Part shown: in pieces, positions 23,505 to 56,266 of the stretch
Layout of the letters: each line of letters starts with the position of its first letter
How positions within the stretch are numbered: position 1 is the stretch's first letter
Origin: Paenibacillus sp. Soil787
GTDB lineage: Bacteria > Bacillota > Bacilli > Paenibacillales > NBRC-103111
NCBI RefSeq assembly: GCF_001429545.1
Contig: NZ_LMSP01000001.1
Location: forward strand, 415,189 to 479,188
DNA: 64,000 nt
Reading direction: 5' to 3'
The notes under the pieces: generated by a model
The model's database searches: none
What the model saw: the letters and a program-made list of their open reading frames with translations, nothing else
What the model was told of the DNA's origin: nothing
Position numbers and translations under genes: made by a program

Positions 23505-23541
23505 ATACTAATTTACAGTAATTTAAAGGGGCTGAATTTTT

Positions 23542-26698: not shown

Positions 26699-26709
26699 AA
26701 AAAACAAGT

Positions 26710-26745: not shown

Positions 26746-26772
26746 TTAAATAACTTTACGGGGGAAAATGTA

Positions 26773-29700: not shown

Positions 29701-29805
29701 ATGGGCGTAGGCGGTGACGACAGCTGGGGAGCGCCGGTACATGATGAGTATCTGATCAAAGCCGATCAAGACCTAGCGTTCGAATTCAATATTCACCGGC
29801 TATGA
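26773..29805 (+). CDS. lacZ: Beta-galactosidase, glycoside hydrolase family 2
   Basis: 1010-residue LacZ-type enzyme hydrolysing terminal beta-galactosides in the cytoplasm (no signal peptide). The domains follow the LacZ order: N-terminal sugar-binding jelly roll (WRQIEVPGHIQLQGYGKPQY, DFWRFSGIFRDVYLY), Ig-like domain, TIM barrel with FKGVNRHEFNSRRGRAI, acid/base Glu460 (SVGNEA) and nucleophile Glu527 (SCEYMHAMGNS), then the large C-terminal beta-galactosidase domain (FWRATTDNDKG, YAMGPEENYIDRAFG). The true start is ATG 26773 behind GGGGGA; the frame is open for another 89 codons upstream, but that part overlaps the permease gene and is not LacZ-like. As part of the importer operon it should cut imported galacto-oligosaccharides. 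Confidence 0.95.
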   Translation: MKLTKPNLSWLTDVGVFAVNRLPAHSDHRYYKTLEEAEATAPMSLRHGLNGSWKFNYSVKPADRPELFHQLDYECDSWRQIEVPGHIQLQGYGKPQYVNTMYPWDGHHDIRPPAIPENDNPVGSYVKYFTLPDHMKGRPVYISFQGVESAFYLWLNGEFVGYSEDSFTPAEFDLTPFLQEGENKLAVEVYQRSTGSWLEDQDFWRFSGIFRDVYLYTLPSIHVRDLFVHTDLDAAYANGSLRADLKLSSMQSASFLLELKDAAGHTVATARSEVSTIEAISLSIDAGQVTPWSAEKPYLYDLYVSVYDQEGTLVEVISQKVGFRKFEMINKIMHLNGKRIVFKGVNRHEFNSRRGRAITKEDMLWDIATLKRNNLNAVRTSHYPNQSLWYELCDIYGIYVIDEMNLETHGSWQKMGAVEPSWNIPANKPEWQDIVMDRAISMVERDKNHPSILIWSVGNEAYAGEVLLNVSNYFRKMDPSRLVHYEGVFHNRKYNDTSDMESRMYAKPADIEVYLNDNPQKPYISCEYMHAMGNSVGGMHKYTELEQKYAMYQGGFIWDYIDQVIVKKDRYGKEFLAFGGDFGDRATDYNFCTNGIVYADRKVSPKMQEVKFLYQNIKLAPDRQGVKVTNENLFEGTDAYDLVVVLHLEGKEIFRGKRHIDIPAQSEAHVPLELPSVDEPGEYVVHASLNLKESTLWAEAGYEVSFGQYVFLVDDLASSAQPEGSFRVVDGDVNIGVHGRDFSIMFSKQAGSLISLNYAGREMIAIPPAPLFWRATTDNDKGFSLGFDSGAWYAASLTRKCIGVELTEQAGSVTVTFQYKLSISADVLVTVAYTVYADGSLNVKSRYDGATGLPNLPIFALSFKVPADYFHLDWYAMGPEENYIDRAFGARLGVFKNDAADNVSGYVVPQESGNRTGVRRVNITNNDGHGIRITAPAAQPVECNISPFTAFELENAYHHYELPNVHYTVVTVAGRQMGVGGDDSWGAPVHDEYLIKADQDLAFEFNIHRL

Positions 29806-38640: not shown

Positions 38641-38811
38641 GTTGTTATCCCGCATTTTGGCGGCGATCCGACAAGCACAATCGTGCAGCAGGAATACGAG
38701 AAGGAAATAGAGAAGTACATGGGAGCCAAAGTGAATATTGAATGAACGCGCATCCCGTGGGGCGAGTATAAAGAGAAAGATATCGCGAATCATACGAACG
38801 GTGAAATTTAG
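38641..38811 (+). pseudogene. Remnant of a sugar ABC solute-binding protein gene
   Basis: In one frame this stretch reads VVIPHFGGDPTSTIVQ, QEYEKEIEKYMGAKVNIE, a TGA, then TRIPWGEYKEKDIANHT and a TAG. VxIE-W-xIPWGEYKEK is the hallmark of long Paenibacillus sugar-binding proteins (compare NVQIEWQDWGTGDAYKQK in the gene at 2744), and the TGA sits exactly where the conserved Trp (TGG) belongs. No signal peptide precedes it and nothing follows it. It is a 57-codon fossil, directly upstream of the GH95-like gene, where a transporter operon probably once stood. Confidence 0.7.
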
Positions 38812-38842
38812 GAGTGTCTGCTTATGCGGGGAGGTAAATAGG

Positions 38843-41093
38843 ATGAACAAGCATGATCTGATATTCGATCAGCCGATCACAAGATGGGACGAGGCGCTGC
38901 CGCTTGGCAACGGATTAACGGGATGCCTCCTGTGGGGAAATGGGAAGCCGCTTCGGTTCAGCCTGGACCGCGGCGATTTGTGGGATTTGCGGCTGACGCC
39001 GGAGGTGCTGGACGCCGGGTTCACCTATGCGGGAATGATCGAATGTGTTCGGCGCGGTGACCAGGAAGGGCTGCTCAGCCGATTTGACAGCATCTACGAA
39101 AAATATCCGGTACCCAACCAAGCTTCCGGCCGGTCGGCTGGAGCTGCATTTTGGGAGGCCGGCGGATCATATGAGGAGCCATCTCGCAATCCGCGAGGCA
39201 TGCGCGCATGTCGATATGGCTTTCGGCGATCGTATTGTTAAGGTGACTAGTTACCTGCATGCAGTTAACGGCCTCGGCTATATCAAAATAACCGGCGCTG
39301 CTTTTAAGGAAGGACGGCTGGACATCGTACCGCCCGATTACGCCGGTGCACTACTGAATCATACGGCAGACCCCGTTTTCCATACGAGCCTAACCCGGCT
39401 CGGCTACCCGGCCGCCACAATGCATGAGGAAGGAGATGTCCGCTGGTTTTATCAGCGAACATGCCAAGAACTTGAATATGCCATTCTTGTAGCCGAACGG
39501 CAAACGGCGAATAACCATTGGGAAGCGGTCTATACGATCGCTGCGAACCATGACGGCGAGCAGTGGCTGGAGAATGCCAAACGGAAGGTTATTAATGCGC
39601 TGGACGCCGGGTTTGACGCCGCATTCCAAGATCATTGCGCGTGGTGGGGACGCTATTGGGGCAAGAGCTCGATCGCTTTGCCGGACGCGGAAGCGGAGAA
39701 GATGTGGTACTTGAACAACTACCTGTTCGCATCCTGCTCGCGCAAAGGCTCTCCGCCAATGCCGCTGCAAGGGGTGTGGACGGCGGACGAAGGCCAGCTC
39801 CCCCCATGGAAAGGCGACTACCATCACGACTTGAATACGCAGCTCAGCTACTGGCACTATTTGAAAGCGAATCATCTGGAAGAAGGGGAGAGCTTCCTCG
39901 ACTTCTTGTGGGACTTGCGACCGGAGGCGAAGCGGTTCGCGCAAAGCTTCTTTGATGCTCCGGGCATCAATCTTCCATCTGTCATGACGCTTACCGGCGG
40001 TGCGATGGGCGGATGGCCGATGTATAGTATGAGCATTACGAACCACATTTGGGTATGTCAGGCGTTCGACCATTACTGGCTATATACGGGCAACGGCGAT
40101 TTCTTGCGCAACAAAGCATACGTGTACTTCAAGGAAACGGCGGACTGCTTGCAGCGCTGGCTGACTCTGGGAGAAGACGGCAAGCTGCGTCTGCCAGTAT
40201 CGAGCTCGCCGGAGATTCACGACAATTCGCTCAAAGCATGGCTGGAGCCGATCAGCAACTACGATTTGGCGCTCCTTATTTATTTGTTCAGGCGATTGCA
40301 CGATATGGCAGAAAGGCTCGCTTATGCCGCTGAAGCGGAAAGATGGGCGGATCTGCTGGGCAAACTCCCGGAGCTTGCCGTTAACGAGCGTAACGTGCTG
40401 ATGGTCAATAAGGAAGAATGCCTCATGGAAAGCCACCGACATATGTCTCATATGATGGCCATTTATCCGCTGCAGCTGCTTGACCGACGTGGTTCGGAGC
40501 GGGATCGCAAGATTGCCGATGCGACGATCGCTAATCTGGAAGTGCTCGGTAAGGGCCAATGGGTCGGCTATTCGTTTGCTTGGGCGGCTGCTATGTACGC
40601 GCAGCAGGGTAACGGAGAAGCAGCGATTTATCATCTGCAGCAAATGTGGCAGTACACATGCTCGCCGAATGGGTTCCATCTGAATGGTGATTATAAAAAG
40701 GCGGGCGTTTGCATGTTTCATTACCGTCCATTCACGCTCGAAGGCAACTTTGCCGCCATTTCCGCACTTCAGGAAATGCTGCTGCATACGGACGGCGGGA
40801 CGATTCGAGCGTTTCCGGCGATTCCCCGGAAATGGGCGGCAAATGACGTCGAGTTCCGCGATTTCCGCGGGGAGATGGGCGTACTCGTCTCGGCGCGATG
40901 GCGTGCAAACCGACTCGACTATGTGGAACTGAATGCTGAACGCAGCGGTTTTTTCCGAGTGCAGAACGATTTCGCGAGCGAAAGACTGCAAATTCGGATC
41001 GACGATAACATGGAGGAGCTCGTTTGCGGAATGAAAGACATTTTGACAATCTCTTTGCAAGCAGGGGAGTCCTGCATGATTACCGAGTTGTAA
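38843..41093 (+). pseudogene. GH95-like glycoside hydrolase with a frameshift
   Basis: The first part (38843 to about 39109, MNKHDLIFDQPITRWDEALP, LGNGLTGCLLWGNGKPLRFS) and the second part (from about 39110, PTKLPAGRLELHFGRPA to the TAA at 41093) are in different frames and join seamlessly if one G is removed at 39109-39110 (CCGGTACCC). The combined protein, about 750 residues, resembles family 95 (alpha-L-fucosidase/galactosidase): QGVWTADEGQLPPWKGDYHHDLNTQ, SSSPEIHDNS (candidate catalytic Glu), HRHMSHMMAIYPLQLLD and GYSFAWAAAMYAQQG. No signal peptide is seen, so it would be cytoplasmic. GGGGAGG precedes ATG 38843. The second part is long and well conserved, so the shift may be recent or a sequencing error. 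Confidence 0.75.
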
Positions 41094-41253: not shown

Positions 41254-41283
41254 AGTTGCTTCAATATTCTATGAAAGCGAGTG

Positions 41284-42057
41284 ATGAAAATGAAAATAGC
41301 AGCACAGCTCTATACAATAAGGGATTATCTGAAAACTCCCGAGGATATCTCGATCAGTCTTAGAAAGGTTAAACAAATCGGTTATAACGCCATTCAAGTT
41401 TCAGGAATAGGTCCTATCGGCAATAGTGAATTGAAAGAAATCGCAGACCGGGAGCAACTGACCATCTGTGCGACCCACATTCCATATGCGGATTTAACTA
41501 ACAATTTGGATGCTGTTATTGAAAAGCATAAGATTTGGGATTGCAAATATGTGGGATTAGGAGGTATGCCGGCGGAATATCGCAACAGCCAAGAAGGATA
41601 TGTGACTTTCGCCAAAGAAGCAACGGACATTGGAAGAAAATTAAAGCAGGCAGGATTGCAATTCTTTTATCATAACCATTCTTTTGAGTTCGCCAAATTT
41701 GGCGGGAAAACCGGGTTGGAAATCCTCATGGAGGAGACAGACCCTGAAGCTATGGAATTCTTACTTGATCTCTACTGGGTACAATCTGGAGGAGCGGATC
41801 CGATAGAATGGATAAACAAATTGAAAGGAAGAATGAAACTTGTTCATTTGAAAGATTTTGCAGTCACGAGTGATATGGAGCAGCGATTTGCCGAGATTGG
41901 CGAAGGTAATATGAATTACATCCGGATTTTGGAGGCATGTAAACAGGTTAGTGTTGAATGGGCTCCGGTTGAACAAGACGACTGTTATGGCCGCAATCCA
42001 TTTGAATGCTTGGCGACCAGCTTCAATTATTTGAGGAACCTTGGTGTGGATGTTTAA
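41284..42057 (+). CDS. Sugar phosphate isomerase/epimerase-type TIM-barrel protein
   Basis: About 257 residues of the AP-endonuclease-2-like xylose isomerase superfamily. Metal-ligand segments expected for the fold are visible: ATHIPYADL, FYHNHSFEF, LLDLYWVQSGGADP, LVHLKDF and EQDDC near the end. Such enzymes isomerise, epimerise or otherwise convert sugars released by neighbouring hydrolases. GTG 41281, ATG 41284 and ATG 41290 are all possible starts; none has a strong ribosome site. The substrate is unknown. Confidence 0.8.
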   Translation: MKMKIAAQLYTIRDYLKTPEDISISLRKVKQIGYNAIQVSGIGPIGNSELKEIADREQLTICATHIPYADLTNNLDAVIEKHKIWDCKYVGLGGMPAEYRNSQEGYVTFAKEATDIGRKLKQAGLQFFYHNHSFEFAKFGGKTGLEILMEETDPEAMEFLLDLYWVQSGGADPIEWINKLKGRMKLVHLKDFAVTSDMEQRFAEIGEGNMNYIRILEACKQVSVEWAPVEQDDCYGRNPFECLATSFNYLRNLGVDV

Positions 42058-42162: not shown

Positions 42163-44472
42163 TTGAATCGGCTGTCTTTGTTTACCAAACAGAAGAAATC
42201 CATGCTGCGGAGAATGATTACGGTCTCATTATTTATTTCTATTGTACCAACGGTTATTACCGGACTAGGCAGCTACCTCTATTCCTCGTCTGTTGTAGAG
42301 ACCGAAGTGAATAAGGCCAATTATCAATTTCTGAAAACTGCTTCCGATAATGTCGATAATAAGCTGCAGACGATTCAGATTAATCTGCTGCAATTACTGA
42401 ATACACCTTATTTTTTGTCCGACTATAATGAGAATTTAAGTGCCGATCAGATAGACTTCTTCAGTAAAGTGTGCAAGACCCTTGGGGCTTTCCAAAATAC
42501 AAACAAAGATTTGCGAGAGCTAGCGCTCTATATCCCCGGTATTGCGTATATGTCTCCGACAAGTGGAGTCATTCGTCCAGACGGCTTATTTTCTCGTGAA
42601 AAGCTCGATAATGAATTAAAGAAAGATTACAGGCTGCGCTGGTTGGAAGAAACGTTCCCTGTGACGTCCTATGCTGAGAAGAGTAGAGGGATTACGCTGA
42701 TGAACAAGTTTCCGCTTGTCAGCAGCGATCCAATTGGACTCGTTCTAGCGTCAGTAGATTCGAGTCTAATTCGCGATATCATCGGGGATTCGACCGTCTA
42801 TAAAGGACAGTTCATGTTCGTGGTGAACGAGAATGGAGGAGTAGTAGCTACATCCTCAGAGCTAATGCAGCCGACTAACTTCTATGAGCACATCCTGAAG
42901 GCGGCTGATGCCCAGTCGAAGTATAATTTTACCTGGAACGACACTACTTATCTGGTTACAGGTATCACTTCGAATTACAGCCATTGGAAATATATCGATG
43001 TTATTCCGGTAAAAGAGTTGCGCGCAAAATCGAGAGGCATCGCGTTCATGACGATGGGAATTGTATTCTTTTTCCTGCTTGTCGGCGTTATCGTGTCGTT
43101 CTTGGGAAGTCGGAGGATCTATCGTCCCGTTGAGCGCTTGCTGACGAGCATGAAAGGAGAATCCCATACGGAATTTGATACCGACGAAATGGGCTTCGTT
43201 CATCGCAGTTGGCTGGATTTGAAACATACGGCTTCACAATTGGAGAACGAGTTGTCACAACAACTGCCAATCATTCGCGAGACGTTCGTACTGCAGCTGC
43301 TTCAAGGCCAGTTTGCCCATTATACCGCTGTGCAGATGAACGAGCTGCTCAGACGGTACCGGCTTCCGGAGCAAGCAGAGTTTGCCGTTATTGCAATAGC
43401 CATTGACATGAATGCGAATCAGAAAGGGAAGTTCCGTGACAATGACAAGGAACTCATACTGTTCGCCATGAAAAACATTATCGATGAGCTTTCTTCAGAG
43501 TGCGGCTGGCAAGGTGTTACGGTTAGCGTTTTGAACGATAGTCTTGTTACATGGATATGGAGCGTTCCGGATGCTCATAGGTGGGACAAGGAGGAGCCCG
43601 ATTTTTTCATATTTGCTGACAGGATGAGGGAAGCGCTCGCTAATTTTGTGCATCTCCCCGTGACGGCCGGTCTAAGCGGGACCGCTTATGAAGTGAAGGA
43701 GCTGCCGGAGATGTACCGCCAAGCGATGTTCGCGCTCGAATCACGTATCATTGTTGGGAGAAATAAAGTACTTCGGGACGAGGGGGCAAGCGTTAGCGAA
43801 GGCATCTATCCAGTCGAACTGGAACAGCATTACGAGAATTCACTGAAACTCGGCAATCAAGAGGAAGCGGAGCGGATGTTGAACGATTTCTCGGTTGCGG
43901 TCAAAAGGCTGGCGGGATCACCAGAAGGTGTGCTTCTCTATTACAATCAGCTGCTGGCCGCTACGCTGCGTACCGCCTACGCATTGCACGTGGAGCCGAA
44001 ACAACTGTTCGGACAAGATGATCCATACTCCTATATCCGTAAATTGAAAAGCATGGAGGACATCAACAAATGGTTCGTAACCGCCTTGATAGCGCCAATT
44101 ATCGCTGCCGTTCAGGGGAATCGCCACGGGGAATATGAGCTCATGGTGAAGACAGCCGTCCATTATATTCACGACAATTACAATCGGGATATTTCACTCG
44201 AAGAGTGTGCAGATCATTGCGGTGTCAGCACATTTCAGCTCAGTAAATGGTTTAAAAAAATGCAGCAGACCGTCTTCATTGACTATTTGACGGATTACCG
44301 TATCCAGAAAGCGAAGCAAATCTTATTGGAGACCGATTTACCTGTTAACGAGGTTTCCAGTTTAGTCGGGTATCAACGGCAAAATTTCATGCGCGTCTTT
44401 AAGAAGTTGGTCGGCATCACACCCGGACAGTACCGGGAATCGGTACAAAAACCTCATTCGTTAGAGCCATAA
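42163..44472 (+). CDS. Membrane-anchored AraC-family transcriptional regulator (sensor type)
   Basis: 769 residues. The N-terminal helix (MITVSLFISIVPTVITGLGS) and a second helix near 290-312 (IAFMTMGIVFFFLLVGVIVS) enclose a dCache-like extracellular domain. A long cytoplasmic linker leads to the C-terminal AraC pair of helix-turn-helices (ISLEECADHCGVSTFQLSKW and VNEVSSLVGYQRQNFMRVFK) and the typical ITPGQYRES. The start is TTG 42163, with GAGGGGGC upstream. Placed just before the GH101/importer genes, it is the best candidate for the factor acting on the paired promoters at 44705 and 50575 (inference). Confidence 0.87.
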   Translation: MNRLSLFTKQKKSMLRRMITVSLFISIVPTVITGLGSYLYSSSVVETEVNKANYQFLKTASDNVDNKLQTIQINLLQLLNTPYFLSDYNENLSADQIDFFSKVCKTLGAFQNTNKDLRELALYIPGIAYMSPTSGVIRPDGLFSREKLDNELKKDYRLRWLEETFPVTSYAEKSRGITLMNKFPLVSSDPIGLVLASVDSSLIRDIIGDSTVYKGQFMFVVNENGGVVATSSELMQPTNFYEHILKAADAQSKYNFTWNDTTYLVTGITSNYSHWKYIDVIPVKELRAKSRGIAFMTMGIVFFFLLVGVIVSFLGSRRIYRPVERLLTSMKGESHTEFDTDEMGFVHRSWLDLKHTASQLENELSQQLPIIRETFVLQLLQGQFAHYTAVQMNELLRRYRLPEQAEFAVIAIAIDMNANQKGKFRDNDKELILFAMKNIIDELSSECGWQGVTVSVLNDSLVTWIWSVPDAHRWDKEEPDFFIFADRMREALANFVHLPVTAGLSGTAYEVKELPEMYRQAMFALESRIIVGRNKVLRDEGASVSEGIYPVELEQHYENSLKLGNQEEAERMLNDFSVAVKRLAGSPEGVLLYYNQLLAATLRTAYALHVEPKQLFGQDDPYSYIRKLKSMEDINKWFVTALIAPIIAAVQGNRHGEYELMVKTAVHYIHDNYNRDISLEECADHCGVSTFQLSKWFKKMQQTVFIDYLTDYRIQKAKQILLETDLPVNEVSSLVGYQRQNFMRVFKKLVGITPGQYRESVQKPHSLEP

Positions 44473-44931: not shown

Positions 44932-47900
44932 ATGTCAAACAGGAGTAAATTTATTCAAAAGAGTTTAGGAAGAAAATGTAAGATGATCATGCTGACGCTT
45001 TTGTTTTTCTTGGCACAATTTTACTCATTCAGTAATCTATCGTTTCTTGGCGAGACGACAGTGCTGGCAGCAAGTCAGGCCACCATTCAGTCAACTAGTA
45101 TGAGCGTGACCGTGGACGACGCTTTTCCCAGAATTGTTCAATACCAATGGCTCAGGGCTGGTGCGTCTCAAAATGCCGTATTTTACGGAAATGAAGACAC
45201 GATGAATCAGGTTAAAATCAACGGTACAACTTACACACCAACGGTAACAAGTGTTAAAACAGGAGACACGATAACCTATACACTGAACATTTCAAGTATT
45301 GGGGTAACAATGACTTTGTATTTCAAAGTTACCGACAACATCGTCGAATTCAAGGTAAGCGATATTGCCGAAAACGGCGCGACGAAAGTAATGACCTTTG
45401 AAATTCCGAACCAAAACCTGATATCCATCCGTGATGATCAGGCTGGTGCACAGGAAACAGGGGTTGATGTCAAGGGTTCCGTCAATTACGATGATAATTC
45501 CAAGGAAGAATACAACACATTATCTACTAAGGCAGTTGACGCAAACCCGGTGGCAAAATCTTATCTTATTCTGAATACCGACAAGCTTGCAGCAACTATG
45601 TATAATAACGCCATTAATACGACGCCGACCACAGGGAGCAAGATTCTGGGCGACAAGTTTGAAACCAGATACTACTACCAGACGGTGAGCAAGACCTCGT
45701 ATAAGAGAATGGGTGCATGGAATAATGCTTGGACTTACAGAGAAGTGCCAACGGAGATTATGGAATTGCCATATGCCAAAATCACCATTACACCAGATAT
45801 AAATAATGACAGTAAAGTAGACTGGCAGGATGGCGCCATTGCATACAGGCAGATTATGAAAATTCCATATGGTGCAGACACAATTAAAAAGAGCTTTGCC
45901 GGTATTGCATATACCCGTGGAAGTCTTGCCCAGTGGCCCTTCCTGAGGACACTCGATATGGTCAAGAAGATAAACCTGTATACTGACGGCTTCGGACAGT
46001 TCTTGGAATATAAGGGACATCAGGCTGAAGGCCATGATTCAAATCACCCTGACTACGGAATCAACATCAATAAGAGAGCAGGGGGTCTGACTGATCTTAA
46101 TTATTTTGTGAATGAGGCTGCTAAATATAACACTAGCGTAGGGGTACATATCAATGCTACTGAGGCTTATCCGGAAGCGCAATACTACAGTGAAGGTCTT
46201 CTCAGACAGCCGCACGCGCCCGGTTGGAATTCCCTGGACCAGGCGTACCTTATTGACCAGTACAAAGATGCCACTAATTTGGGGAGTCATGGATTGGCTG
46301 ACAGGCTCGCAGAGCTTAAATCAAATGTTCCAGGCCTGAAGTGGGTTTATGTTGATGTGTATTATTTTCAGGGATATCCAGAGTGGAAGCTGGGAACAGA
46401 ATTAAATAAAAACGGTTGGGCTGTGGGCACGGAATTCCAGGGGGCACTTGAAGACTATGCTGTATGGAATCATGTGCCGCAGATGAAGAGCCAAGTAGTC
46501 AGGTTTATGAAGAACGGCGTTGCAGATTCCTTCGGTTTCAACCCTATGCTGCTGAAATCAAGGCATGCAGGCTCCATGGGTTACGGGGACGACGGCAACG
46601 ACGACCAAGGTAATAATACCGGCTTGATAAGCCAAATGAAAATATTCTTTACCAACAATCTGCTGATGAAGTATATGCAGAACTTTGACATTATGAAGTG
46701 GACAAACAACAGGATCGATTTCACTAACAATGTATATGTCAAAGAAACAACGCCAGAGCCTAATCCGGTAGTTGAGTTATACAAGGACAATAAAAAGATT
46801 GCTGCTTATCAGAACAATTATGATACTTCAACCTATAACATAAGCAACGTAAGTGCCAAAGTGTTCATCCCTTGGGATCCCCAGAGTGAGACCAAGATCT
46901 ACCACTATAACACGGCCGGAGGAAGCACGACCTGGGACCTTCCGGACAGTTGGTCTGGGATGGACAAGGTGAAGCTGTATCAATTATCCGATACGGGCAA
47001 AACATTTGTGAAGGACCTGGGTGTAACGAACGGTCAAGTAACGATTGACGCAACTGCGAATACGCCCTATGTCATCTACAAAAGTGAGCAAACCAACCCT
47101 GTAATGACTTGGGGAGAAGGCGGATTTGTGAAAGATCCTGGTTTTGACAGCCACGACTTATCGCCCGCAACCTCAGCGTGGACTATAGCGTCTACTAGTG
47201 GTAGCACAAGCCATATTCAAATATCGAACAGCAACGTTGGTGAGACCTATCTGAATGTGAACGGAAACAATGGTGCGGATGCGACATTGAGCCAGACCCT
47301 AACAGGGCTGACCCCGGGCAAGACCTATCAACTTTCTGCTTGGATGGAGGTTAATGGAAGGACTGGAACGATCGGTGTTAACAACTATGGTGGATCTGAA
47401 GTTACGAACACTATGGAAAAATCGGAACTTACAAACCAGTATTATAACACGCTAAGGTATAGTCGTAATAACATGCAGAGAATTAAGTTGGAATTTACCG
47501 TTCCCTCCAATCACACTAGTGCAGACATTTATTTCAAGGCAAATGCAGGGACTTCTGCATCTTATATGTACCTTGATGACGTGCGTATTGTAGAAATGAA
47601 TACCACGCCATTTGGAAGTCACTATTTCTTCGAAGACTTTGAGAGCAATGACGAAGGCATAGGACCTTTTGTACAGACTAAGCTGGTCGGTCGCATTCAC
47701 AGATCGGAGTTTCATAATGGTTTTACGACCGATACGATCAACGGTAATTATTCATTGAAGATGAGGCAGACCACTTCAACTGAAACAGGCGAATACATGA
47801 GGACTGTGCCGTACAACGTCAAACTGCAGCCCAATACCCTGTATAAGATGAGCTTTAATTATCAGCTTGGTCAGATAAACAGTGGAGCCTATTCTGTTGC

Positions 47901-50511
47901 TGTCAAAGGAAACAACGGTGCAATCACTTTGTCCAATGTGCCAATTCCTGCATCAGTCAACGGCTCCGCATATTCAACATTTACTAAGACATTTTTAACT
48001 GGTAACTATGAGGATGCCTACGTTTCTTTTATAAAGAACGGGGGAGGCATGATTGACTTTGTCATTGATGACTTTGCGATTGACGTTTTACCCTCACTGC
48101 CTCCTTTGGCTGTACCAACAGGGTTAAAAGCGACTGCTTTAAGCCCATCCCAGATTAGCGTAAGCTGGAATGAGGCGGATTTAGCAACCGAATATGATCT
48201 GGAAGTAGATGGCCAAGTAGTAACACCTGCTGTCTCTCCTTACATGCATTCCGGGTTGGCTCTCAATTCTACGCATACCTATCGAGTAAGGGCAAAGAAT
48301 ACGACGGAGACAACGGATTGGAGCGCACCTGTTAGCGCTGCGTCATTGAATGCGATTTCAATCGTTGCAGCAGCGGATGCATATGTACGTGATGGCGGAT
48401 CAGCAAATACGAACTTTGGTGCTGATCAAACAGCTCTCGTCAAGTTTGATGCAGTCGGCTATAACCGTGAGGCCTTCTACAAATTTAACTTGGAGCGTAT
48501 ACCAGCCAATGTGACCAGCGCAAAGATTAAGCTATATCCAACGACGGCTGGTGCTGTATCGCCGGGGATTAATGTCGAGCAAGTCCAGAATAATTGGAGC
48601 GAGTCTGCCATAACTTGGAACAATAAGCCATCCGTATTAGGGGCTAAATTGAATGCAAGTCCTATTATGCCTGATCTTAACACTGCATTTGTCATTGATG
48701 TGACGAATATGGCCAAGAGTGCGCTGGCTAGCCAAGATAAAAACATATCCATAAAATTAACGAATGCACTCCTGAGAGGCGGTTCTTCCGATAGTCAGTT
48801 CGCGACTAAGGAAAATAGTATAGCGCAATACTGGCCTGTAGTGGAGTATAACGCACCAGGAAGCATTAGAGGCAAGGTTGTAGACAGCAGTAATATGCCA
48901 GTTTCAGGCGCAACCGTGACAGCATCTGTCACCAGTTCCGTGTATGGTTCAGTTTATACAGCGGCGGACGGAACATATGCCATAACGGATATACCTTCAG
49001 GCTCCAGCTATTCCGTAACGGTAAGTAAAACGGGATACTTGGATGCGTCACGCACGAATGTTATTGTGCCGATGGGAGACGTTGCAATAATTGATATGAC
49101 ACTTACATCACCAATTAGCCTGCCATCAAACAACGCAGATCTGAAAGGGCTGAGCTTGTCGAGCGGACAATTGAATCCGGCATTTGCAGCGGAAACGACA
49201 TCGTACACGGCGAATGTGGGCAACGATGTGAGCAGCATAACAATAATGGCGTCTGTTTATGATGCGAATGCGACGTTGATGGTAAGCGGACAGCAGGCTG
49301 CGAGTGGCCAAGCAAGCGAACCGATCAGCCTGCAAGCAGGCAGCAATACGATCAATATTGTCGTGACGGCTCAAGACTTAACGACGAAAACGTATGCGTT
49401 GACCGTGATCCGCGAGTCTGCTCCTCCGTCAACGCCGATTCTGGACAATATCGTATCCGGTAACGGAAAGCTTACCTTGAATTGGACGCAATCAACAGGA
49501 GCAACTGGTTATAAAGTCAAATACGGAACAGCCAGCGGTTTGTATACGTCATCGGTCGATGCTGGCAATGTTTCCAGCACTACCATTGAGGGACTTCAAA
49601 ATGGAGTAACCTATTATTTCGCCATCAGCGCCTATAACTCAGGTGGAGAAAGCGGTAATTCCGACGAAAGGATTGGAGCACCAGATGGCATTCCTCCTTC
49701 AACCGAAGCAACTTTGGACGGAGTGAAAGGCACTGGTGATTGGTATACTTCAGATGTATCTGTAAAGCTTGAATCTCAAGACGATAATTCTGGTCCAGCT
49801 TCTACAGAATATTCATTGAATGTCATCCTTGGTTCGAGCGTCTTGCAGTCGACCTATGGATTCGTGCCTTATACGGCTCCACTCGTACTAAGCGATGGAA
49901 CTTATCAGGTTCAGTATCGATCGACGGACCGTGCTGGAAATGTTGAAACTCCTAAAACGATGACGGTCAATATCGATCAGACAGCACCAACAACGGTGCT
50001 CACTGCAAATGGCAGCCCATTAGTGAATGGGGCAACATTCCAAGATAACGAATTGCTAACGCTAGTTATCCAATCTGAGGATCCATTGTCTGGAGTAGCT
50101 TCACAAACGATAACCATCGATGGAGGAGAGACTTCAGCGGAACAGAAAATTGTGAATTGGGAAGGTCAACTAGGCAACCATGTGATTCAAGCAGTTGTGA
50201 CCGACCGGGCTGGAAATCGTACGCTAACCACGATTAGTGTGAACGTTACGACAAGTGCAAATGCTTTGCAGCAGCTTATCGCAAAATTTATGGCATCAGG
50301 CGAAATAAACGGATCGCTCGGGACACAAATTACAAACAAATTTACTCAGTCTCTAGACCAATTAAGCAAGGGCCATAATGATCAAGCAATTAAGCATATG
50401 GAGGATGTGTTGAAGCAAATCGAGAAAGCGAATCAAGGTGAAATTTCAGCCTATGCGAAACAAATTTTTATAATAGATGCCAATAGCATTATTGTAGATT
50501 GGTCCAAATAA
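44932..50511 (+). CDS. Secreted multidomain endo-alpha-N-acetylgalactosaminidase, family GH101
   Basis: Family GH101 releases Gal-beta-1,3-GalNAc disaccharides from serine/threonine of mucin-type glycoproteins. A signal peptide (about residues 17-46) is followed by an N-terminal beta-sandwich and the GH101 barrel (about 300-590) with clear landmarks: KGHQAEGHDSNHPDYGI, KRAGGLTDLNYF, VGVHINATEAYPEAQYYSEG, YVDVYY with nucleophile candidate Asp475, and GWAVGTEF with acid/base candidate Glu501. Downstream (approximate): CBM-like beta-sandwiches 715-890 and 905-1050, fibronectin III 1060-1140, DNRLRE/CBM96-like 1142-1310, carboxypeptidase-regulatory-like 1311-1394, cadherin-like 1395-1497, fibronectin III 1498-1587, OmpL47-type Ig-like 1588-1773, FIMAH 1775-1859. 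No sortase motif. GGAGG precedes ATG 44932. Such enzymes are best known from gut and pathogenic bacteria. The following importer may take up the released sugar. Confidence 0.88.
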   Translation: MSNRSKFIQKSLGRKCKMIMLTLLFFLAQFYSFSNLSFLGETTVLAASQATIQSTSMSVTVDDAFPRIVQYQWLRAGASQNAVFYGNEDTMNQVKINGTTYTPTVTSVKTGDTITYTLNISSIGVTMTLYFKVTDNIVEFKVSDIAENGATKVMTFEIPNQNLISIRDDQAGAQETGVDVKGSVNYDDNSKEEYNTLSTKAVDANPVAKSYLILNTDKLAATMYNNAINTTPTTGSKILGDKFETRYYYQTVSKTSYKRMGAWNNAWTYREVPTEIMELPYAKITITPDINNDSKVDWQDGAIAYRQIMKIPYGADTIKKSFAGIAYTRGSLAQWPFLRTLDMVKKINLYTDGFGQFLEYKGHQAEGHDSNHPDYGININKRAGGLTDLNYFVNEAAKYNTSVGVHINATEAYPEAQYYSEGLLRQPHAPGWNSLDQAYLIDQYKDATNLGSHGLADRLAELKSNVPGLKWVYVDVYYFQGYPEWKLGTELNKNGWAVGTEFQGALEDYAVWNHVPQMKSQVVRFMKNGVADSFGFNPMLLKSRHAGSMGYGDDGNDDQGNNTGLISQMKIFFTNNLLMKYMQNFDIMKWTNNRIDFTNNVYVKETTPEPNPVVELYKDNKKIAAYQNNYDTSTYNISNVSAKVFIPWDPQSETKIYHYNTAGGSTTWDLPDSWSGMDKVKLYQLSDTGKTFVKDLGVTNGQVTIDATANTPYVIYKSEQTNPVMTWGEGGFVKDPGFDSHDLSPATSAWTIASTSGSTSHIQISNSNVGETYLNVNGNNGADATLSQTLTGLTPGKTYQLSAWMEVNGRTGTIGVNNYGGSEVTNTMEKSELTNQYYNTLRYSRNNMQRIKLEFTVPSNHTSADIYFKANAGTSASYMYLDDVRIVEMNTTPFGSHYFFEDFESNDEGIGPFVQTKLVGRIHRSEFHNGFTTDTINGNYSLKMRQTTSTETGEYMRTVPYNVKLQPNTLYKMSFNYQLGQINSGAYSVAVKGNNGAITLSNVPIPASVNGSAYSTFTKTFLTGNYEDAYVSFIKNGGGMIDFVIDDFAIDVLPSLPPLAVPTGLKATALSPSQISVSWNEADLATEYDLEVDGQVVTPAVSPYMHSGLALNSTHTYRVRAKNTTETTDWSAPVSAASLNAISIVAAADAYVRDGGSANTNFGADQTALVKFDAVGYNREAFYKFNLERIPANVTSAKIKLYPTTAGAVSPGINVEQVQNNWSESAITWNNKPSVLGAKLNASPIMPDLNTAFVIDVTNMAKSALASQDKNISIKLTNALLRGGSSDSQFATKENSIAQYWPVVEYNAPGSIRGKVVDSSNMPVSGATVTASVTSSVYGSVYTAADGTYAITDIPSGSSYSVTVSKTGYLDASRTNVIVPMGDVAIIDMTLTSPISLPSNNADLKGLSLSSGQLNPAFAAETTSYTANVGNDVSSITIMASVYDANATLMVSGQQAASGQASEPISLQAGSNTINIVVTAQDLTTKTYALTVIRESAPPSTPILDNIVSGNGKLTLNWTQSTGATGYKVKYGTASGLYTSSVDAGNVSSTTIEGLQNGVTYYFAISAYNSGGESGNSDERIGAPDGIPPSTEATLDGVKGTGDWYTSDVSVKLESQDDNSGPASTEYSLNVILGSSVLQSTYGFVPYTAPLVLSDGTYQVQYRSTDRAGNVETPKTMTVNIDQTAPTTVLTANGSPLVNGATFQDNELLTLVIQSEDPLSGVASQTITIDGGETSAEQKIVNWEGQLGNHVIQAVVTDRAGNRTLTTISVNVTTSANALQQLIAKFMASGEINGSLGTQITNKFTQSLDQLSKGHNDQAIKHMEDVLKQIEKANQGEISAYAKQIFIIDANSIIVDWSK

Positions 50512-50515
50512 TTCC

Positions 50516-50561
50516 AATAAGAACGCGGTCAGGAGCCATCGCTCTTGATCGCGTTCTTATT
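50516..50561 (+). terminator. Terminator after the GH101 gene
   Basis: AATAAGAACGCG (50516-50527) pairs with CGCGTTCTTATT (50550-50561). It separates the GH101 gene from the importer, which has its own promoter module B. Confidence 0.85.
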
Positions 50562-50729: not shown

Positions 50730-51647
50730 ATGACATTATTCTTAAAGGATTGGGCTGTAGCCCTAAAAAGAGATAGGTATTTATATCTGCTTATGGCGCC
50801 AGGCATTTTGTTCTTTCTCATCTTCAAATACGGTTCGATGTGGGGGCTGACGCTGGCGTTCCAAAACTATTCTCCATTCCTCGGTTTCTGGAAGAGCGAA
50901 TGGGTCGGCTTCAAGTATTTCATTGATTTCCTGACGAATCCCGACTTCTTTAAACTACTGAGGAACACGATGGCGATTAGTTTCCTGAACATCCTGTTCT
51001 TTTTCCCGGCGCCGATCATTCTGGCTCTCATGCTCAACGAAGTACGGCGCTTAAAGTTCAAGAAGCTTGTACAAACGGCGATATATCTGCCCCATTTCGT
51101 TTCTTGGGTTGTCATCGCGGGGATATGCTTCATCCTGCTTAGCAAGTCGTCCGGCGTTGTGAATGGGCTGATTGCGGACATGGGCGGGACGAAAATCGAT
51201 TTTCTGACGAACGCCAATACGTTTTGGCTTTTGCTGACCGCGCAAAGCATTTGGAAGGATGCCGGATATGGCACCATTATTTTCTTGGCGGCGCTGACGA
51301 GCATCAATCCCGAACAATATGAAGCGGCGGAAATCGACGGAGCAAGCCGCTGGAAGCAGTTGCTGTATATCACGCTTCCGGGCATTAAGTCAACGATTGT
51401 GGTGCTGCTCATCCTTCGATTGGGGACGGTTATGGACGTCGGCTTCGAGCAGGTATATCTGATGAATAGCGCGCCTGTAGAAAGTATAGGCGACGTCTTC
51501 GATACTTACGCATACCGCGTTGGGGTCCAGCAGGGCCGGTTCAGCTTCGCCGTTGCTGCAGGCATGTTCAAATCGGTCGTAGGTTTAATCTTGGTGGTTG
51601 CAGCAAACCGCATCGCTAAGAAAATGGGAGAGGAAGGGGTATACTAG
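50730..51647 (+). CDS. LplB-type sugar ABC transporter permease
   Basis: First channel subunit of the locus 3 importer, 305 residues. The first helix is YLYLLMAPGILFFLIFKYGS, the EAA loop is EAAEIDGASRWKQLLYITLP and the C-terminus is AANRIAKKMGEEGVY, as in LplB-like proteins. The ribosome site GAGGTG lies nine bases before ATG 50730. It is immediately followed by the YtcP-type gene. Confidence 0.92.
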   Translation: MTLFLKDWAVALKRDRYLYLLMAPGILFFLIFKYGSMWGLTLAFQNYSPFLGFWKSEWVGFKYFIDFLTNPDFFKLLRNTMAISFLNILFFFPAPIILALMLNEVRRLKFKKLVQTAIYLPHFVSWVVIAGICFILLSKSSGVVNGLIADMGGTKIDFLTNANTFWLLLTAQSIWKDAGYGTIIFLAALTSINPEQYEAAEIDGASRWKQLLYITLPGIKSTIVVLLILRLGTVMDVGFEQVYLMNSAPVESIGDVFDTYAYRVGVQQGRFSFAVAAGMFKSVVGLILVVAANRIAKKMGEEGVY

Positions 51648-51648
51648 C

Positions 51649-52509
51649 ATGAAACATTCCTCCAAATGGTTAGACGTTGTTATCTATACGGCGCTGTTTC
51701 TATTTTCCGTATCTACGGTAGTGCCTTTCATCTATATCACGATCGTATCCTTCACGGATCCGCATGAATTTATAACGACACCAGTTATGTTGTTTCCACA
51801 TTCATGGAGTATTGCATCATATCGCTACATCTTGTCGTCCAATCAATTCGTGAATTCACTGCTACTCACAACGGCATTAACCATTGTAGGCACGGTCTGT
51901 GCGCTGCTGGTGACCTCCGGATTAGCGTACGGCTTATCGCGCAGAAGGCTAAAAGGCCGCAATTTTATCCTCACGGCTATCCTGTTCACGATGCTGTTTA
52001 ATCCCGGCATCATGCCTAACTATTTGCTGATCCGGAATCTAGGCCTCTTGAACAGCTTTTGGGCACTAGTCCTGCCAGGCTTGGCGACTGCCTTCTATGT
52101 ATTACTGATGAAAAGCTTCTTTCAAGACGTGCCAGCCGAGCTTGAGGAATCAGGTAAAATCGATGGCTGCTCGGATGTCGGTATCTTTTTCCGGATCATA
52201 CTTCCGATCTCGCTCCCAGTTATCGCTGCTTTCAGTTTGTTTTACGGCGTTGGCTACTGGAACACTTATTTTGGTGGTGTGTTGTACATCAATAAGGACA
52301 CGCTGCGGCCACTCCAAGTCGTCTTGCAGCAAATGCTGTCCGCAAGCTCTGCCGGAGCTGATTACGGAGAATCATCGGGAGCGGTTGTACCCACCGAAAC
52401 CGTGAAAATGGCAGCCGTTGTCCTTGCAGCTGTTCCTATTGTCATGGTCTATCCGTTTCTTCAGAAATATTTTGTGAAAGGCTTGACGCTTGGCTCGGTG
52501 AAGGGCTAA
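51649..52509 (+). CDS. YtcP-type sugar ABC transporter permease
   Basis: Second channel subunit, 286 residues from ATG 51649, behind AGGAAGGGG. Helices include VVIYTALFLFSVSTVVPFIY; the EAA loop is EESGKIDGCSDVGIFFRIIL and the end is KYFVKGLTLGSVKG. The frame is open 17 codons further upstream, but that overlaps the preceding gene and is not part of the family. Confidence 0.92.
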   Translation: MKHSSKWLDVVIYTALFLFSVSTVVPFIYITIVSFTDPHEFITTPVMLFPHSWSIASYRYILSSNQFVNSLLLTTALTIVGTVCALLVTSGLAYGLSRRRLKGRNFILTAILFTMLFNPGIMPNYLLIRNLGLLNSFWALVLPGLATAFYVLLMKSFFQDVPAELEESGKIDGCSDVGIFFRIILPISLPVIAAFSLFYGVGYWNTYFGGVLYINKDTLRPLQVVLQQMLSASSAGADYGESSGAVVPTETVKMAAVVLAAVPIVMVYPFLQKYFVKGLTLGSVKG

Positions 52510-52622: not shown

Positions 52623-54188
52623 ATGAAAAAACATTTTAACATGGTAGGTCTTACTGCTACAGCGGCGTTGTTAATACTTACAACTGCTTGCGGAAGCGGT
52701 ACGGACAAAAAAGCGGATTCGACACAACCGTCAGCTACAAAAGAGGCAGCTAAGGCGCTTACTGAAATTACGATCATCGCACCTACTTACAATGATGTGC
52801 CTAAGAATGATTTGGAAGCGATTGGGCAAGTCAACCAGAAACTCAATGTTAAAATCAATGCTTCATATGTCCCTTCTAATAACTACGACGACAAAGTCAA
52901 CGTCATGCTCTCGTCCAACGACTTACCGGATTTGACGGTTGTATGGGACATTACGAAGCAAAATTGGACGCAAGCGCTTCAGCAAGGTGCTTTCTGGGAT
53001 TTGACGCCTTATATCAAGAACTACCCGAATTTATCCAAAATTGACGCAGGCATATATAGCGCTCTTTCGTTTAACGGCAAAACGATGGGTGTACCGCGAG
53101 TCAGACCGCAGGATGGTCATGAGTCATTGATTATTCGTAAAGACTGGCTGGATAAATTAGGCTTGCAGGTACCAAAGACAACGGACGACATGTATAAAGT
53201 CATGGAGGCGTTTACTAAGAACGATCCGGATGGCGATGGCAAGCCTGATACTTACGGTTTTGCATCGTATTCTACTCCTGGGCCTCAAACTTACTTATTT
53301 TCGATGTTCGGTTCCTCTACGGCCGGGGGTATTTCGCAAGGATGGGCGAAGGACAGCTCAGATAAATTGATTCCGGCTTTCACAACTCCACAAATGAAAA
53401 CAGCTCTTACTTATTGGAGCAAAGCATTCAAGGAAGGCTTAATTGTACCTGATTACCCGGTCATGAAAGCACAGCAGTTAAAGGATATGTTCATCCAGGG
53501 CAAAATCGGTATGTACATCGGAAACATTGTCGACATTTACAATTCTCCAAACATGATTAAAGAACTGCAGAAGACGAATCCCAAAGCAGATGCTGTAGCA
53601 TATGAGCTTCCTGTTGCCCCGGATGGCAAACATTACTATGAACGTAGTTCAGGGAATTTCGGACAATTGATGATCAACAAGAAAGTTCCTGAGGACAAAA
53701 TGAAGAAAATTTTGGAACTCATGGATTACGGCAACACGCTAGAAGGTTGGAAACAAATCAATTATGGCGTCAAGGATAAAGACTATACAGATACGAACAT
53801 TCCAACGATTGTCGTTCAAACAGATGCGGGTAAGGCGAATCAGTATCCAAACCCGGGTCAATGGATCCCTAGCTACTTTAACAAATATGCAAGAGCCGAG
53901 AATGGAGATATGTCACCTGAAATCATTAAATATGATCATGATCTCGTTGACAGCATTAACAAGAATTCTATTCTGGATCCAGCCACAGGGATTAATACAC
54001 CAACAAATGCAGAGAAGGGCGCTGACTTCCTCAAGAAAATTTATGACAATGAAATTAATACGCTTGTAGGCAAAAACAGTTTGGAAGATTGGGACAAATT
54101 CGTTAAATCGATGCTTGACGATGCTTCCTACCAGAAGCTCGCCAAAGAAGTGAACGACGCCTATAAAGCGAAAACTGGCGGCAAATAA
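52623..54188 (+). CDS. Extracellular sugar-binding lipoprotein (LplA-like)
   Basis: 521 residues; lipoprotein signal MKKHFNMVGLTATAALLILT with lipobox TTAC. Landmarks of the long binding-protein family are NYDDKVNVMLSSNDLPDLTV, DGHESLIIRKDWLDKLGLQV and KNDPDGDGKPDTYGFASY (Ca-binding-like loop). GGGGG precedes ATG 52623. It completes the locus 3 importer; the likely ligand is a glycan fragment released by GH101 or handled by the heparinase-like lyase. Confidence 0.92.
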   Translation: MKKHFNMVGLTATAALLILTTACGSGTDKKADSTQPSATKEAAKALTEITIIAPTYNDVPKNDLEAIGQVNQKLNVKINASYVPSNNYDDKVNVMLSSNDLPDLTVVWDITKQNWTQALQQGAFWDLTPYIKNYPNLSKIDAGIYSALSFNGKTMGVPRVRPQDGHESLIIRKDWLDKLGLQVPKTTDDMYKVMEAFTKNDPDGDGKPDTYGFASYSTPGPQTYLFSMFGSSTAGGISQGWAKDSSDKLIPAFTTPQMKTALTYWSKAFKEGLIVPDYPVMKAQQLKDMFIQGKIGMYIGNIVDIYNSPNMIKELQKTNPKADAVAYELPVAPDGKHYYERSSGNFGQLMINKKVPEDKMKKILELMDYGNTLEGWKQINYGVKDKDYTDTNIPTIVVQTDAGKANQYPNPGQWIPSYFNKYARAENGDMSPEIIKYDHDLVDSINKNSILDPATGINTPTNAEKGADFLKKIYDNEINTLVGKNSLEDWDKFVKSMLDDASYQKLAKEVNDAYKAKTGGK

Positions 54189-54354: not shown

Positions 54355-54397
54355 TTTGGATGCGTATAATTTGAATCTCAAAGGAAGAGTGAATAAT

Positions 54398-56266
54398 ATG
54401 CTTGTGGAGCGATATGCGAATGATATTTCCAGACTAATAACTGCTTATGGAAACTATCATCCTTACCCAAAGGTTGAGAATAGAGAAATATGGGATTTAA
54501 TTCCCAGTTCCATCCAAAAACATTGGATTTCTAAGGGAGAAACTCACCTTGGCTTTTCATGGCCGGCAATTACGGCTGTAGATTACATGGAATATTCAAA
54601 AAATGGAAATGTTGTCCGATTTCAGAACAAATATGAGGAACGCAGGATTGCACTCACTTCCTTAGTTCTTGCAGAATGTATGGAGGGAGCAGGCCGCTTT
54701 ACCGATCAGATCATGAATGGGATCTGGACCATATGCGAAGAATCCTCCTGGGTAATTCCCGCTCATATGGTAATTTCCAAAGCAAGTTCATCCGACTGTA
54801 TACCTAATATTTCCGACCAATACATCGATTTGTTTGCCTCGGAGACGGCCAGTTTAATGGCAACAACACATTACCTTTTGCAAAAACCGCTGGATGCAGT
54901 TAGTCCCAATATATGCGGTCGAATTCGTATGGAAATGAAGCGCCGCATTTTTGATCCATATCTGGAACGCAACGACTTGTGGTGGATGGGGCTGCAAACG
55001 AATCGTAAAATGAACAACTGGAATCCGTGGATCAACTCCAACTGTCTTTCTGCTTTCCTTCTGCTGGAGAGAAGCGATGAGCGTCGTTATCGGGCAATAG
55101 AAAAGGTCATGCGCACCCTTGATCGGTATATCGGCGATTGCAGTACGGACGGTGGATGCGATGAAGGTCCGGTTTACTGGGATCGTGCCGGCGGGGCATT
55201 GTTTGACTGCCTGGAACTATTTTACGAAGCTTCCCAAGGCAAGATGAACTTGTATAATGAGCCATTGATTAAAGAAATCGGACGCTACTTATACAGAGTT
55301 CACATTGACGATACCAACTTTGTCAACTTTGCCGATAGCAGCGCTAAATTTGAAATAGCAGCTGATATCGCGTATCGATACGGATTTAGGATTGGGGATC
55401 GGCAATTGATAAGATTGGCGTCATCTGCGTACCAAACGAACAAACCGCCGCTCTCTAGATGGCTGACGCTGCATCGCATGATACCTTCCTTTTTTCTGGA
55501 TGACAAAATTATAGGGAAAAAAGAAACGCCCCCATTTGTTCGCGATGCATGGCTGAACAGTATCCAAGTTATGACAGCGAGGGAACAAGAAGGCTCCAGC
55601 CGTGGTTTGTATCTGGCCGTTAAAGGGGGCCATAACGATGAGAGCCATAATCATAATGATATCGGTCATTTCCTTGTATATTCGGACGGGAGCCCTTTTC
55701 TTATTGATATCGGTGTCGAAACGTATACCGCCAAGACGTTTAGTTTACAGCGTTACGAAATTTGGACGATGAAGTCCGCCTATCACAATGTACCCCTAGT
55801 AAACGGGATTCAGCAGCAGGCGGGAAGTGCCTTCAAAGCAAGTGAAGTAAGCTACCGGAGCGAAGATGAATTAGCGCAAATCTCGATGAACATTGCCGGT
55901 TCGTATCCTCAAGAGTCAGGATTGGGCACGTGGAAACGCACGTTCAACTTTCATCGAAATGAAGAAGCATATATCGAGATCGTGGACGATTTTGAACTCA
56001 GTCAAGAAACCGATGCTATTCAGCTGAATTTGATAACCCCGGACATGCCTCAAATTGAAAATACAGGAACGATCCTGCTGCGGAATGCGGCAGGCGAGCA
56101 ATTACGGATCGATTATGACGGAAGCCAACTGATTGCATACTTCGAAGAAATCACTCTAACCGATGAAAAATTACAGGTTGTTTGGGGTGAGTTTCTTTAT
56201 AGAATAACTCTGAAGGCAAAGTTTCCTGTCAATGCTTCTGTGTGGACAATGAACATTAGGAAGTGA
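54398..56266 (+). CDS. Heparinase II/III-like polysaccharide lyase, no signal peptide
   Basis: 622 residues. The helical N-terminal domain contains NLLWWMGL-like LERNDLWWMGLQTNRKMNNW and WNPWINSN; the C-terminal beta-sandwich carries the heparinase II/III signature GGHNDESHNHNDIGHFLVYS with the expected His residues. Related proteins cleave uronic-acid polysaccharides, though many members have unknown substrates. No signal peptide, so it acts inside on imported fragments. AAAGGAAG lies ten bases before ATG 54398; an in-frame ATG at 54356 lacks a ribosome site and begins in the flank of repeat copy 3. Confidence 0.82.
   Translation: MLVERYANDISRLITAYGNYHPYPKVENREIWDLIPSSIQKHWISKGETHLGFSWPAITAVDYMEYSKNGNVVRFQNKYEERRIALTSLVLAECMEGAGRFTDQIMNGIWTICEESSWVIPAHMVISKASSSDCIPNISDQYIDLFASETASLMATTHYLLQKPLDAVSPNICGRIRMEMKRRIFDPYLERNDLWWMGLQTNRKMNNWNPWINSNCLSAFLLLERSDERRYRAIEKVMRTLDRYIGDCSTDGGCDEGPVYWDRAGGALFDCLELFYEASQGKMNLYNEPLIKEIGRYLYRVHIDDTNFVNFADSSAKFEIAADIAYRYGFRIGDRQLIRLASSAYQTNKPPLSRWLTLHRMIPSFFLDDKIIGKKETPPFVRDAWLNSIQVMTAREQEGSSRGLYLAVKGGHNDESHNHNDIGHFLVYSDGSPFLIDIGVETYTAKTFSLQRYEIWTMKSAYHNVPLVNGIQQQAGSAFKASEVSYRSEDELAQISMNIAGSYPQESGLGTWKRTFNFHRNEEAYIEIVDDFELSQETDAIQLNLITPDMPQIENTGTILLRNAAGEQLRIDYDGSQLIAYFEEITLTDEKLQVVWGEFLYRITLKAKFPVNASVWTMNIRK

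Follow-up and report, generated by a model that had tools for sequence, protein, structure and literature searches.

Introduction

Glycoside hydrolase family 101 (GH101) is treated as a family of O-glycanases, and genome surveys count its members as mucin-degrading enzymes (e.g., PMC9120202). The closest described members are SpGH101 of S. pneumoniae (EngSP; PDB 3ecq and 5a55–5a59) and EngBF of B. longum (2zxq). In SpGH101, K1156, E1253, and D1254 are reported to bind the −2 galactose (Gal) of T antigen at its C3 and C4 hydroxyls, and a D1254N change reportedly leaves almost no T-antigen activity (PMC12550630). Here we describe P0001, a GH101-family protein encoded in a 64,000-nucleotide stretch of Paenibacillus sp. 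Soil787 (contig NZ_LMSP01000001.1, positions 415,189–479,188), hereafter the window. At 32–33% identity, P0001 shares with SpGH101 and EngBF the five-domain core, the fold, the nucleophile, the acid/base, and the equivalents of D658, H661, H694, N696, and W724, but it has Ser in place of W726 and the E1253–D1254 loop is deleted.

We think it reasonably likely that P0001 is a true GH101 glycosidase from which recognition of the −2 Gal has been removed, and that it serves as the extracellular depolymerase of an acidic-glycan module and not as a core-1 O-glycanase. Since part of the pocket for the mucin sugar is gone and the neighboring genes are those expected for acidic polysaccharides, the secreted protein probably cuts a glycan other than a mucin O-glycan. 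That P0001 is active, that N-acetylgalactosamine (GalNAc) still occupies −1, and what the acidic glycan is and which route it takes are the parts of this proposal that we infer.

Results and Discussion

Domain architecture and fold

The P0001 gene is one complete open reading frame that starts with ATG and has a GGAGG-like site upstream; no tandem DNA repeats were found in it. The protein exceeds the curated Pfam cut-offs for PF12905, PF18080, and PF17451 (258, 183, and 78.5 bits), and its core, as delimited with Pfam and NCBIfam, comprises Gal_mutarotas_3 (residues 52–298), GH101 (299–548), GH101_C (576–691), domain 5 (733–878), and GalBD_like (882–1011). Beyond the core are eight accessory domains: two fn3 domains, a CBM96/DNRLRE module, CarboxypepD_reg (1311–1392), a Cadherin-like domain (1413–1495), two OmpL47-type domains, and a C-terminal FIMAH domain. 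The N terminus contains a hydrophobic segment (maximum 15-residue hydropathy 1.89), a search for LPxTG and lipobox motifs found neither, and the protein contains a single Cys. These features agree with an earlier reading of the window made from its letters alone (the sequence-only reading), which described a secreted, unanchored GH101 protein with about eight accessory domains and a FIMAH tail.

The CBM96 module passes the PF24517 cut-off, and as the founding member of CBM96 is reported to bind alginate (PMC9971899), binding of alginate by this module is a prediction from family membership. Domain 5 (residues 730–889; 47119–47598) resembles the galactan-binding TmCBM61 (Z 16.4, root-mean-square deviation (rmsd) 1.9 over 136 residues). 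A literature search on FIMAH brought up work that, judged by titles, concerns E. coli.

Residues 46–1015 were modeled from 40 sequences, with a mean predicted local distance difference test score of 89.1 and a predicted template-modeling score of 0.91. In keeping with the sequence-only reading, which had looked to structure prediction, the model has the five-domain GH101 fold, with Z 41 to both SpGH101 and EngBF (Z 41.3 (VIA), rmsd 2.7, 907 residues against 5a56) and Foldseek TM scores of 0.85 to both. In phmmer searches the core matched 3ecq with an E value of 5e-105 and EngBF with 2e-99, far beyond chance. GH129 enzymes (NagBb and the 3,6-anhydrogalactosidase ZgGH129) have a related fold (Z 18–21 to P0001) but are 10% identical, and P0001 contains the entire GH101 core. 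According to structure-entry titles, ZgGH129 provides a precedent for a relative of α-GalNAcases that acts on an algal polysaccharide.

The active site: −1 contacts kept, −2 contacts deleted

To compare active sites we used SpGH101 numbering (3ecq chain index + 36), verified by hand on W724, D764, E796, D658, H661, H694, N696, and Q868. In the alignment, P0001 D369, H372, H406, N408, W432, D475, and E501 correspond to SpGH101 D658, H661, H694, N696, W724, D764, and E796. Asp475 and Glu501, which the sequence-only reading had picked as the catalytic pair, thus align with D764 and E796, and the pair is invariant across 40 aligned GH101 cores. By sequence, fold, and catalytic residues, P0001 is a member of GH101.

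The same reading had also called the GH101 landmarks complete, and in this it was mistaken. The second lid Trp is absent, as SpGH101 W726 corresponds to S434. Where EngBF has VEDNRIHLSE, P0001 has VGRIHRSE, four residues fewer when the segments are aligned, so that the equivalents of both E1253 and D1254 are deleted. The GWQG tryptophan and the loop past the acid/base are also missing or altered; compared with canonical GH101 proteins of Paenibacillaceae, P0001 has a 12-column gap past the acid/base and seven extra columns beside the Q868 equivalent. The position of K1156 is a gap in P0001 and Q in a canonical Paenibacillaceae protein (L009), as read from the alignments, and we give it no weight. 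P0001 therefore lacks two tested traits of T-antigen-specific enzymes and, judged from sequence, would not be classed as a core-1 O-glycanase (EC 3.2.1.97). Since all tested −1 contacts are kept, we argue that the cleaved sugar would still be α-GalNAc; since the −2 Gal contacts are deleted, the difference would lie in the adjoining sugar or in how long the chain is. The mucin (core-1) specificity suggested by the sequence-only reading is not borne out by a site that lacks both these contacts and the second lid Trp.

It is also possible, if unlikely, that P0001 is an ordinary core-1 endo-α-N-acetylgalactosaminidase acting on mucin-type glycoproteins, in which the changes around −2 just loosen specificity, for example toward substituted core-1 glycans. 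The family assignment, the intact catalytic pair, and the tested −1 contacts fit such an enzyme, and changes at E1253 and K1156 of SpGH101 are reported to raise activity on sialyl-T antigen (PMC12550630). POGases, GH101 enzymes of Actinomycetota with a broad O-glycan range, resemble P0001 in having an altered lid motif and many accessory domains, and they act on sialylated core 1 (PMC11861894). Compared by published motif, however, the POGase lid, AWGWMNQ, keeps both Trp residues and the P0001 lid, GWNSLDQ, does not. The near inactivity of D1254N SpGH101 on T antigen also argues against a core-1 enzyme, as do the rarity of the P0001 site and the genes that surround it, described below.

Distribution of the altered site in GH101

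We sampled the best 80 of 389 GH101 matches, ranked by similarity to P0001, and added 19 cores from a class-wide draw in which GH101 was present in 18 of 398 genomes. The W726 column across 110 GH101 cores holds W in 101, S in five, Y in three, and T in one; the five with Ser are P0001 and its orthologues in P. filicis, P. phytorum, P. planticolens, and P. aceris. A tree of 108 rows was built by a quick search without bootstrap from residues 295–690, with the lid and the Q868 loop removed and two cores (L041 and L063) left out. It divides 54/54 (SH-aLRT 99). The canonical half, which contains a near-twin of SpGH101 (L140; 2309 bits to 3ecq), has D at 1254 in all 54 rows, compared with four of 54 (L057, L058, L101, and L154) in the divergent half, which contains P0001. 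Since the D1254 column was not used to build the tree, this pattern independently supports the split.

P0001 falls in a clade of five rows (support 99), or seven with L048 and L049 (support 100). All five members retain the equivalents of D658, H661, H694, N696, D764, and E796. Five positions (N328, Y363, W434, G542, and W551) that are shared by 90% or more of the 54 canonical cores and by 85% or more of the remaining 47 divergent cores are changed in all five. Deletion of E1253 and D1254 combined with Ser at W726 occurs in none of the 105 other cores, which speaks against ordinary core-1 activity. P0001 shares 89% identity with the P. filicis core and 87% with the P. phytorum core, and both have the same site residues.

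The 7.66-Mb Soil787 genome has three GH101 genes. The other two adjoin each other on contig C47 (L042, 5212–16826; L172, 3005–7003); one is canonical and one is on a long branch, with a polysaccharide lyase family 8 (PL8) gene about 6 kb away. In Gordonibacillus kamchatkensis, the EGHD motif is gone from the GH101 protein (L048, 8812–13764; named record L084), and the PL8 gene next to it is split into four frames. Five other sampled proteins (L059, L060, L061, L078, and L105) group as a GH101 clade whose genes have GH29 and sulfatase genes in the vicinity. One of these, L060, has no obvious signal peptide by eye and adjoins a GH116 gene, and it may be an intracellular GH101.

A conserved module with a uronate lyase

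The two ABC permeases and the lipoprotein solute-binding protein (SBP) next to the GH101 gene are present as the sequence-only reading described. Its "heparinase-like" lyase is indeed a Hepar_II_III protein; it is better typed as PL33, and it lacks a signal peptide (15-residue hydropathy peaks at 0.15). Residues 30–622 of its 636 match four PL33 chains (8r73, 8r75, 8r6z, and 8r70) at about 420 bits. It keeps NNWNPW, EGPVYW, and ESHNHND, the motifs of invariant N238, Y291, and H444 (numbering assigned from motif spacing), and differs from these PL33 lyases in lacking a signal peptide. Reported PL33 substrates are hyaluronan, heparosan, chondroitin sulfate, and gellan (PMC11848413).

The AraC-type regulator, both permeases, and the SBP are 71–91% identical in P. 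filicis, P. phytorum, and the related genome G044. Taken singly, the regulator is 71–76% identical in the three relatives that carry a clade GH101 and 73% in another genome, G049, and the permeases are 83–92% identical in the relatives' modules, G049 included. The GH101 gene lies between the regulator and the first permease in Soil787, ahead of the regulator in P. phytorum, and behind the SBP in P. filicis and G044, where the next gene encodes a PL8 lyase and a TIM-barrel protein, respectively. In P. aceris and P. planticolens it lies behind a different, non-orthologous transporter set with a 60–61% identical PL33. Since GH101 has three different positions with respect to the orthologous set and is also found beside a non-orthologous one, its link with the module has outlived rearrangement. 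G049 has the orthologous module without an adjacent GH101; its module includes PL33 (80% identical), sulfatase, TIM-barrel, GH88, and Gfo/Idh genes, and the genome's GH101-domain matches are two weak ones elsewhere (43 and 30 bits).

We then asked how often GH101 has a uronate lyase gene no more than 10 kb away, using 79 GH101 loci plus the window and L049. Iterated profiles were built from three lyase queries, two from a clade locus (P. filicis) and one from the window. Fourteen non-clade loci with less than 10 kb of total flank were dropped (74 to 60) and the C47 pair was not counted; L063, left out of the tree, and L113, which has no tabulated core, were counted as non-clade. With profiles, a lyase was found at 7/7 extended-clade loci and 5/60 others (Fisher p 9e-7, which like the values below is indicative). 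Single-sequence searches gave 7/7 and 4/74. Applying the flank rule to both groups gave 5/5 and 5/60 (p 3e-5), and scoring the two loci with broken lyases (L049 and L084) as negative gave 5/7 and 5/60 (p 5e-4). The association of GH101 with lyases is strong in the window clade and weak elsewhere. The link of GH101 to a lyase and an importer that the sequence-only reading drew is therefore upheld, if with a broken lyase at two of the seven loci.

The lyases at the clade loci are a further argument against a core-1 enzyme, and the search for a breakdown route points the same way. As that reading noted, no lacto-N-biose phosphorylase is visible: GH112 has no match in the Soil787 genome, and of 104 genomes of the family three have a GH112 match; these three lie outside the set of 48 in which GH101 matches. 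No AgaS match was found in the Soil787 genome. The classical bifidobacterial core-1 route (GH101/GH112) was set aside on the lack of GH112 and AgaS matches in this genome. Species names, taken alone, point to plant or soil sources. In favor of core-1 glycans, GH95-like and GH2 genes are found near the GH101 genes of relatives.

Given the lyases, another possibility is that the module degrades animal proteoglycans, with PL33, PL8, and HepIII-type lyases and a sulfatase stripping glycosaminoglycans and GH101 removing O-linked GalNAc chains (e.g., keratan-sulfate type II or core 2) from the same core proteins. We consider this quite improbable. It would be consistent with the activity reported for PL33 members on hyaluronan, chondroitin, heparosan, or gellan (PMC11848413), with the sulfatase and GH88 genes of related modules, and with the HepIII-type and PL8 lyases in P. 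filicis, of which the latter has the hyaluronate lyase HylB as its best NCBIfam model (533 bits, under the cut-off of 1350). Among solved structures, however, this PL8 scores highest with xanthan lyases (733 bits to 6f2p, compared with 423 to chondroitin AC lyase and 365 to hyaluronidase), no conserved sulfatase is found in the Soil787 genome, and none of the species names hints at an animal source. Heparan or chondroitin as a settled substrate was set aside on the xanthan-lyase similarity, the modest HepIII homology (145 bits), and the lack of an orthologous sulfatase, and is kept as a rival. Of the glycoprotein- or proteoglycan-degrading system proposed in the sequence-only reading, the proteoglycan part is possible, and a bacterial or other acidic glycan would be at least as likely.

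Proposed function

If P0001 is the depolymerase of an acidic-glycan module, it would hydrolyze α-GalNAc-type linkages in a uronate-containing glycan outside the cell. The AlgQ-like lipoprotein and the two permeases would import acidic oligosaccharides, and inside the cell the PL33 lyase would degrade them, aided by an unsaturated uronyl hydrolase of the GH88 type whose gene lies elsewhere in the genome. A GH88 gene 70% identical to that of the G049 module is present on contig C44.

What might the glycan be? The boldest fit, which we propose only tentatively and regard as rather unlikely, is a teichuronic-acid-like polymer. The clade would then be a polysaccharide endo-α-N-acetylgalactosaminidase retuned from Gal-β1,3-GalNAc-α-Ser/Thr to HexA-β1,3-GalNAc-α1,4-HexA repeats (HexA, hexuronic acid), of the kind found in teichuronic-acid-like wall polymers of Gram-positive soil bacteria. 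The polymer we cite is from Streptomyces: the S. griseus chain is given as →3)GalNAc-α(1→4)-ManNAc3NAcA-β(1→ (PMC13274773), and a limited literature search on Bacillus teichuronic acid gave no usable structure. A GalNAc at −1 with a 1,3-linked sugar at −2 would keep the geometry, and deletion of E1253 and D1254 would take away two acidic residues that would otherwise face a uronate. With the lid Trp lost and a loop shortened, the occluded pocket could become a through-cleft that admits a chain. Elimination by the cytoplasmic PL33 would then break the leftover HexNAc-α1,4-uronate bonds, in the way that some PL33 enzymes act on heparosan. A limited literature search, covering titles and the beginnings of abstracts, revealed no paper on a teichuronic-acid-degrading enzyme.

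Several observations weigh against a depolymerase of acidic glycans. The main reason for caution is that most GH101 candidates screened in the POGase study were highly active on core 1 (PMC11861894), a finding that also favors the core-1 alternative. Since 50 of the 54 divergent cores lack D1254 and yet mostly bear W726, loss of D1254 alone need not end O-glycan activity. Other GH101 genes (L073, L098, L106, and L127, besides the C47 pair) have PL8 genes nearby as well. The seven clade loci are kin by descent and the lyase queries came from the clade or the window, so the Fisher values overstate independence. No orthologue of the related modules' sulfatase was found in the Soil787 genome (best match 30% identity), and terminator-like sites separate GH101 from the importer genes and the SBP gene from PL33. 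Finally, the lyase is in pieces at two sister loci (L049 and L084), the sister protein L048 has lost D658 and H661, and H661 is changed in L049; parts of the extended clade may be relaxing.

These last changes bear on one more alternative, namely that P0001 is a degenerating or inactive GH101 retained mainly for its binding domains. The frameshift in the neighboring GH95-like gene is in keeping with such decay. We nonetheless hold it to be very unlikely, given a full-length frame in which all tested catalytic and −1 residues are present and the close P. filicis and P. phytorum cores with the same residues.

If enzymes of this kind do cut acidic polysaccharides, annotation as GH101 exaggerates how widely mucin is used, and wall polymers or other GalNAc-uronate glycans gain a class of hydrolases that can be put to use on them. 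Half of the 108 tree cores in this supposed O-glycanase family belong to the branch in which the galactose-binding Asp is mostly missing, and one clade of that branch also lacks the second lid Trp and lies beside uronate lyases.

Organization of the locus

Coordinates of the features described above are listed in Table 1. The region has 14 terminator-like sites, compared with 13.3 in shuffled sequence, and the 20-bp stem behind the GH101 gene is by far the longest. This stem suggests that the GH101 gene ends its own transcription unit; the GH101, importer, and PL33 genes may be separate units with shared control. The frameshift in the GH95-like gene, noted in the sequence-only reading, is borne out by the intact 764-amino-acid P. 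phytorum relative (L106), which is 92% and 91.5% identical on either side of the break. In P. phytorum, the intact gene shares its locus with a canonical GH101.

Table 1. Features of the GH101 gene and its neighborhood (window coordinates)
Feature	Coordinates	Strand	Basis
GH95-like gene split by a frameshift	38738..41093	+	Open reading frames; domain search
Xylose-isomerase-like TIM-barrel protein; orthologues in the modules of G044 (84%) and G049 (89%)	41281..42057	+	Domain search; identity
AraC-type regulator with weak Cache-domain match; part of conserved module	42163..44472	+	Domain search; identity in relatives
P0001, secreted multidomain GH101-family protein, 1859 amino acids	44932..50511	+	Open reading frame; Pfam/NCBIfam; phmmer; structure comparison
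Gal_mutarotas_3 and GH101 catalytic domain (P0001 52–548); D475 nucleophile, E501 acid/base	45085..46575	+	Pfam; SpGH101 alignment
Lid motif GWNSLDQ (P0001 431–437); W432 kept, S434 at SpGH101 W726	46222..46242	+	Alignment
GH101 β-sandwich, domain 5 (CBM61-like fold), and GalBD_like	46657..47964	+	Pfam; domain 5 compared with TmCBM61
Loop-deletion site (SpGH101 E1253–D1254 gone); gap after P0001 residue 920	47683..47715	+	Alignment
CBM96/DNRLRE module (P0001 1143–1297)	48358..48822	+	Pfam, 116 bits (cut-off 26); match to 8wab
FIMAH tail (P0001 1777–1854)	50260..50493	+	Pfam, 66 bits (cut-off 24.8)
Terminator-like 20-bp stem right after the GH101 gene	50516..50561	+	Stem scan
Two ABC sugar-type permeases (LplB-/YtcP-like, names from the sequence-only reading)	50730..52509	+	BPD_transp_1
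Lipoprotein SBP; nearest solved structures AlgQ1/AlgQ2 (72 bits)	52623..54188	+	Domain and structure-sequence search
PL33-type polysaccharide lyase; no signal peptide, probably cytoplasmic	54356..56266	+	PDB chain matches; hydropathy

Elsewhere in the window, a twin-arginine translocation (Tat)-signal metallophosphoesterase adjoining a major facilitator superfamily gene (58093–59313) has no match in the nine relatives' loci compared. A further sugar locus (21580–29805) contains a histidine kinase, a LacZ-type GH2, and permease-like genes. A second acidic-glycan locus (2744–12393), about 33 kb upstream of the GH101 gene, encodes SBP-like and LplB-like proteins, a PL8 lyase (6383–8848), an AraC regulator, and a BNR_4 protein.

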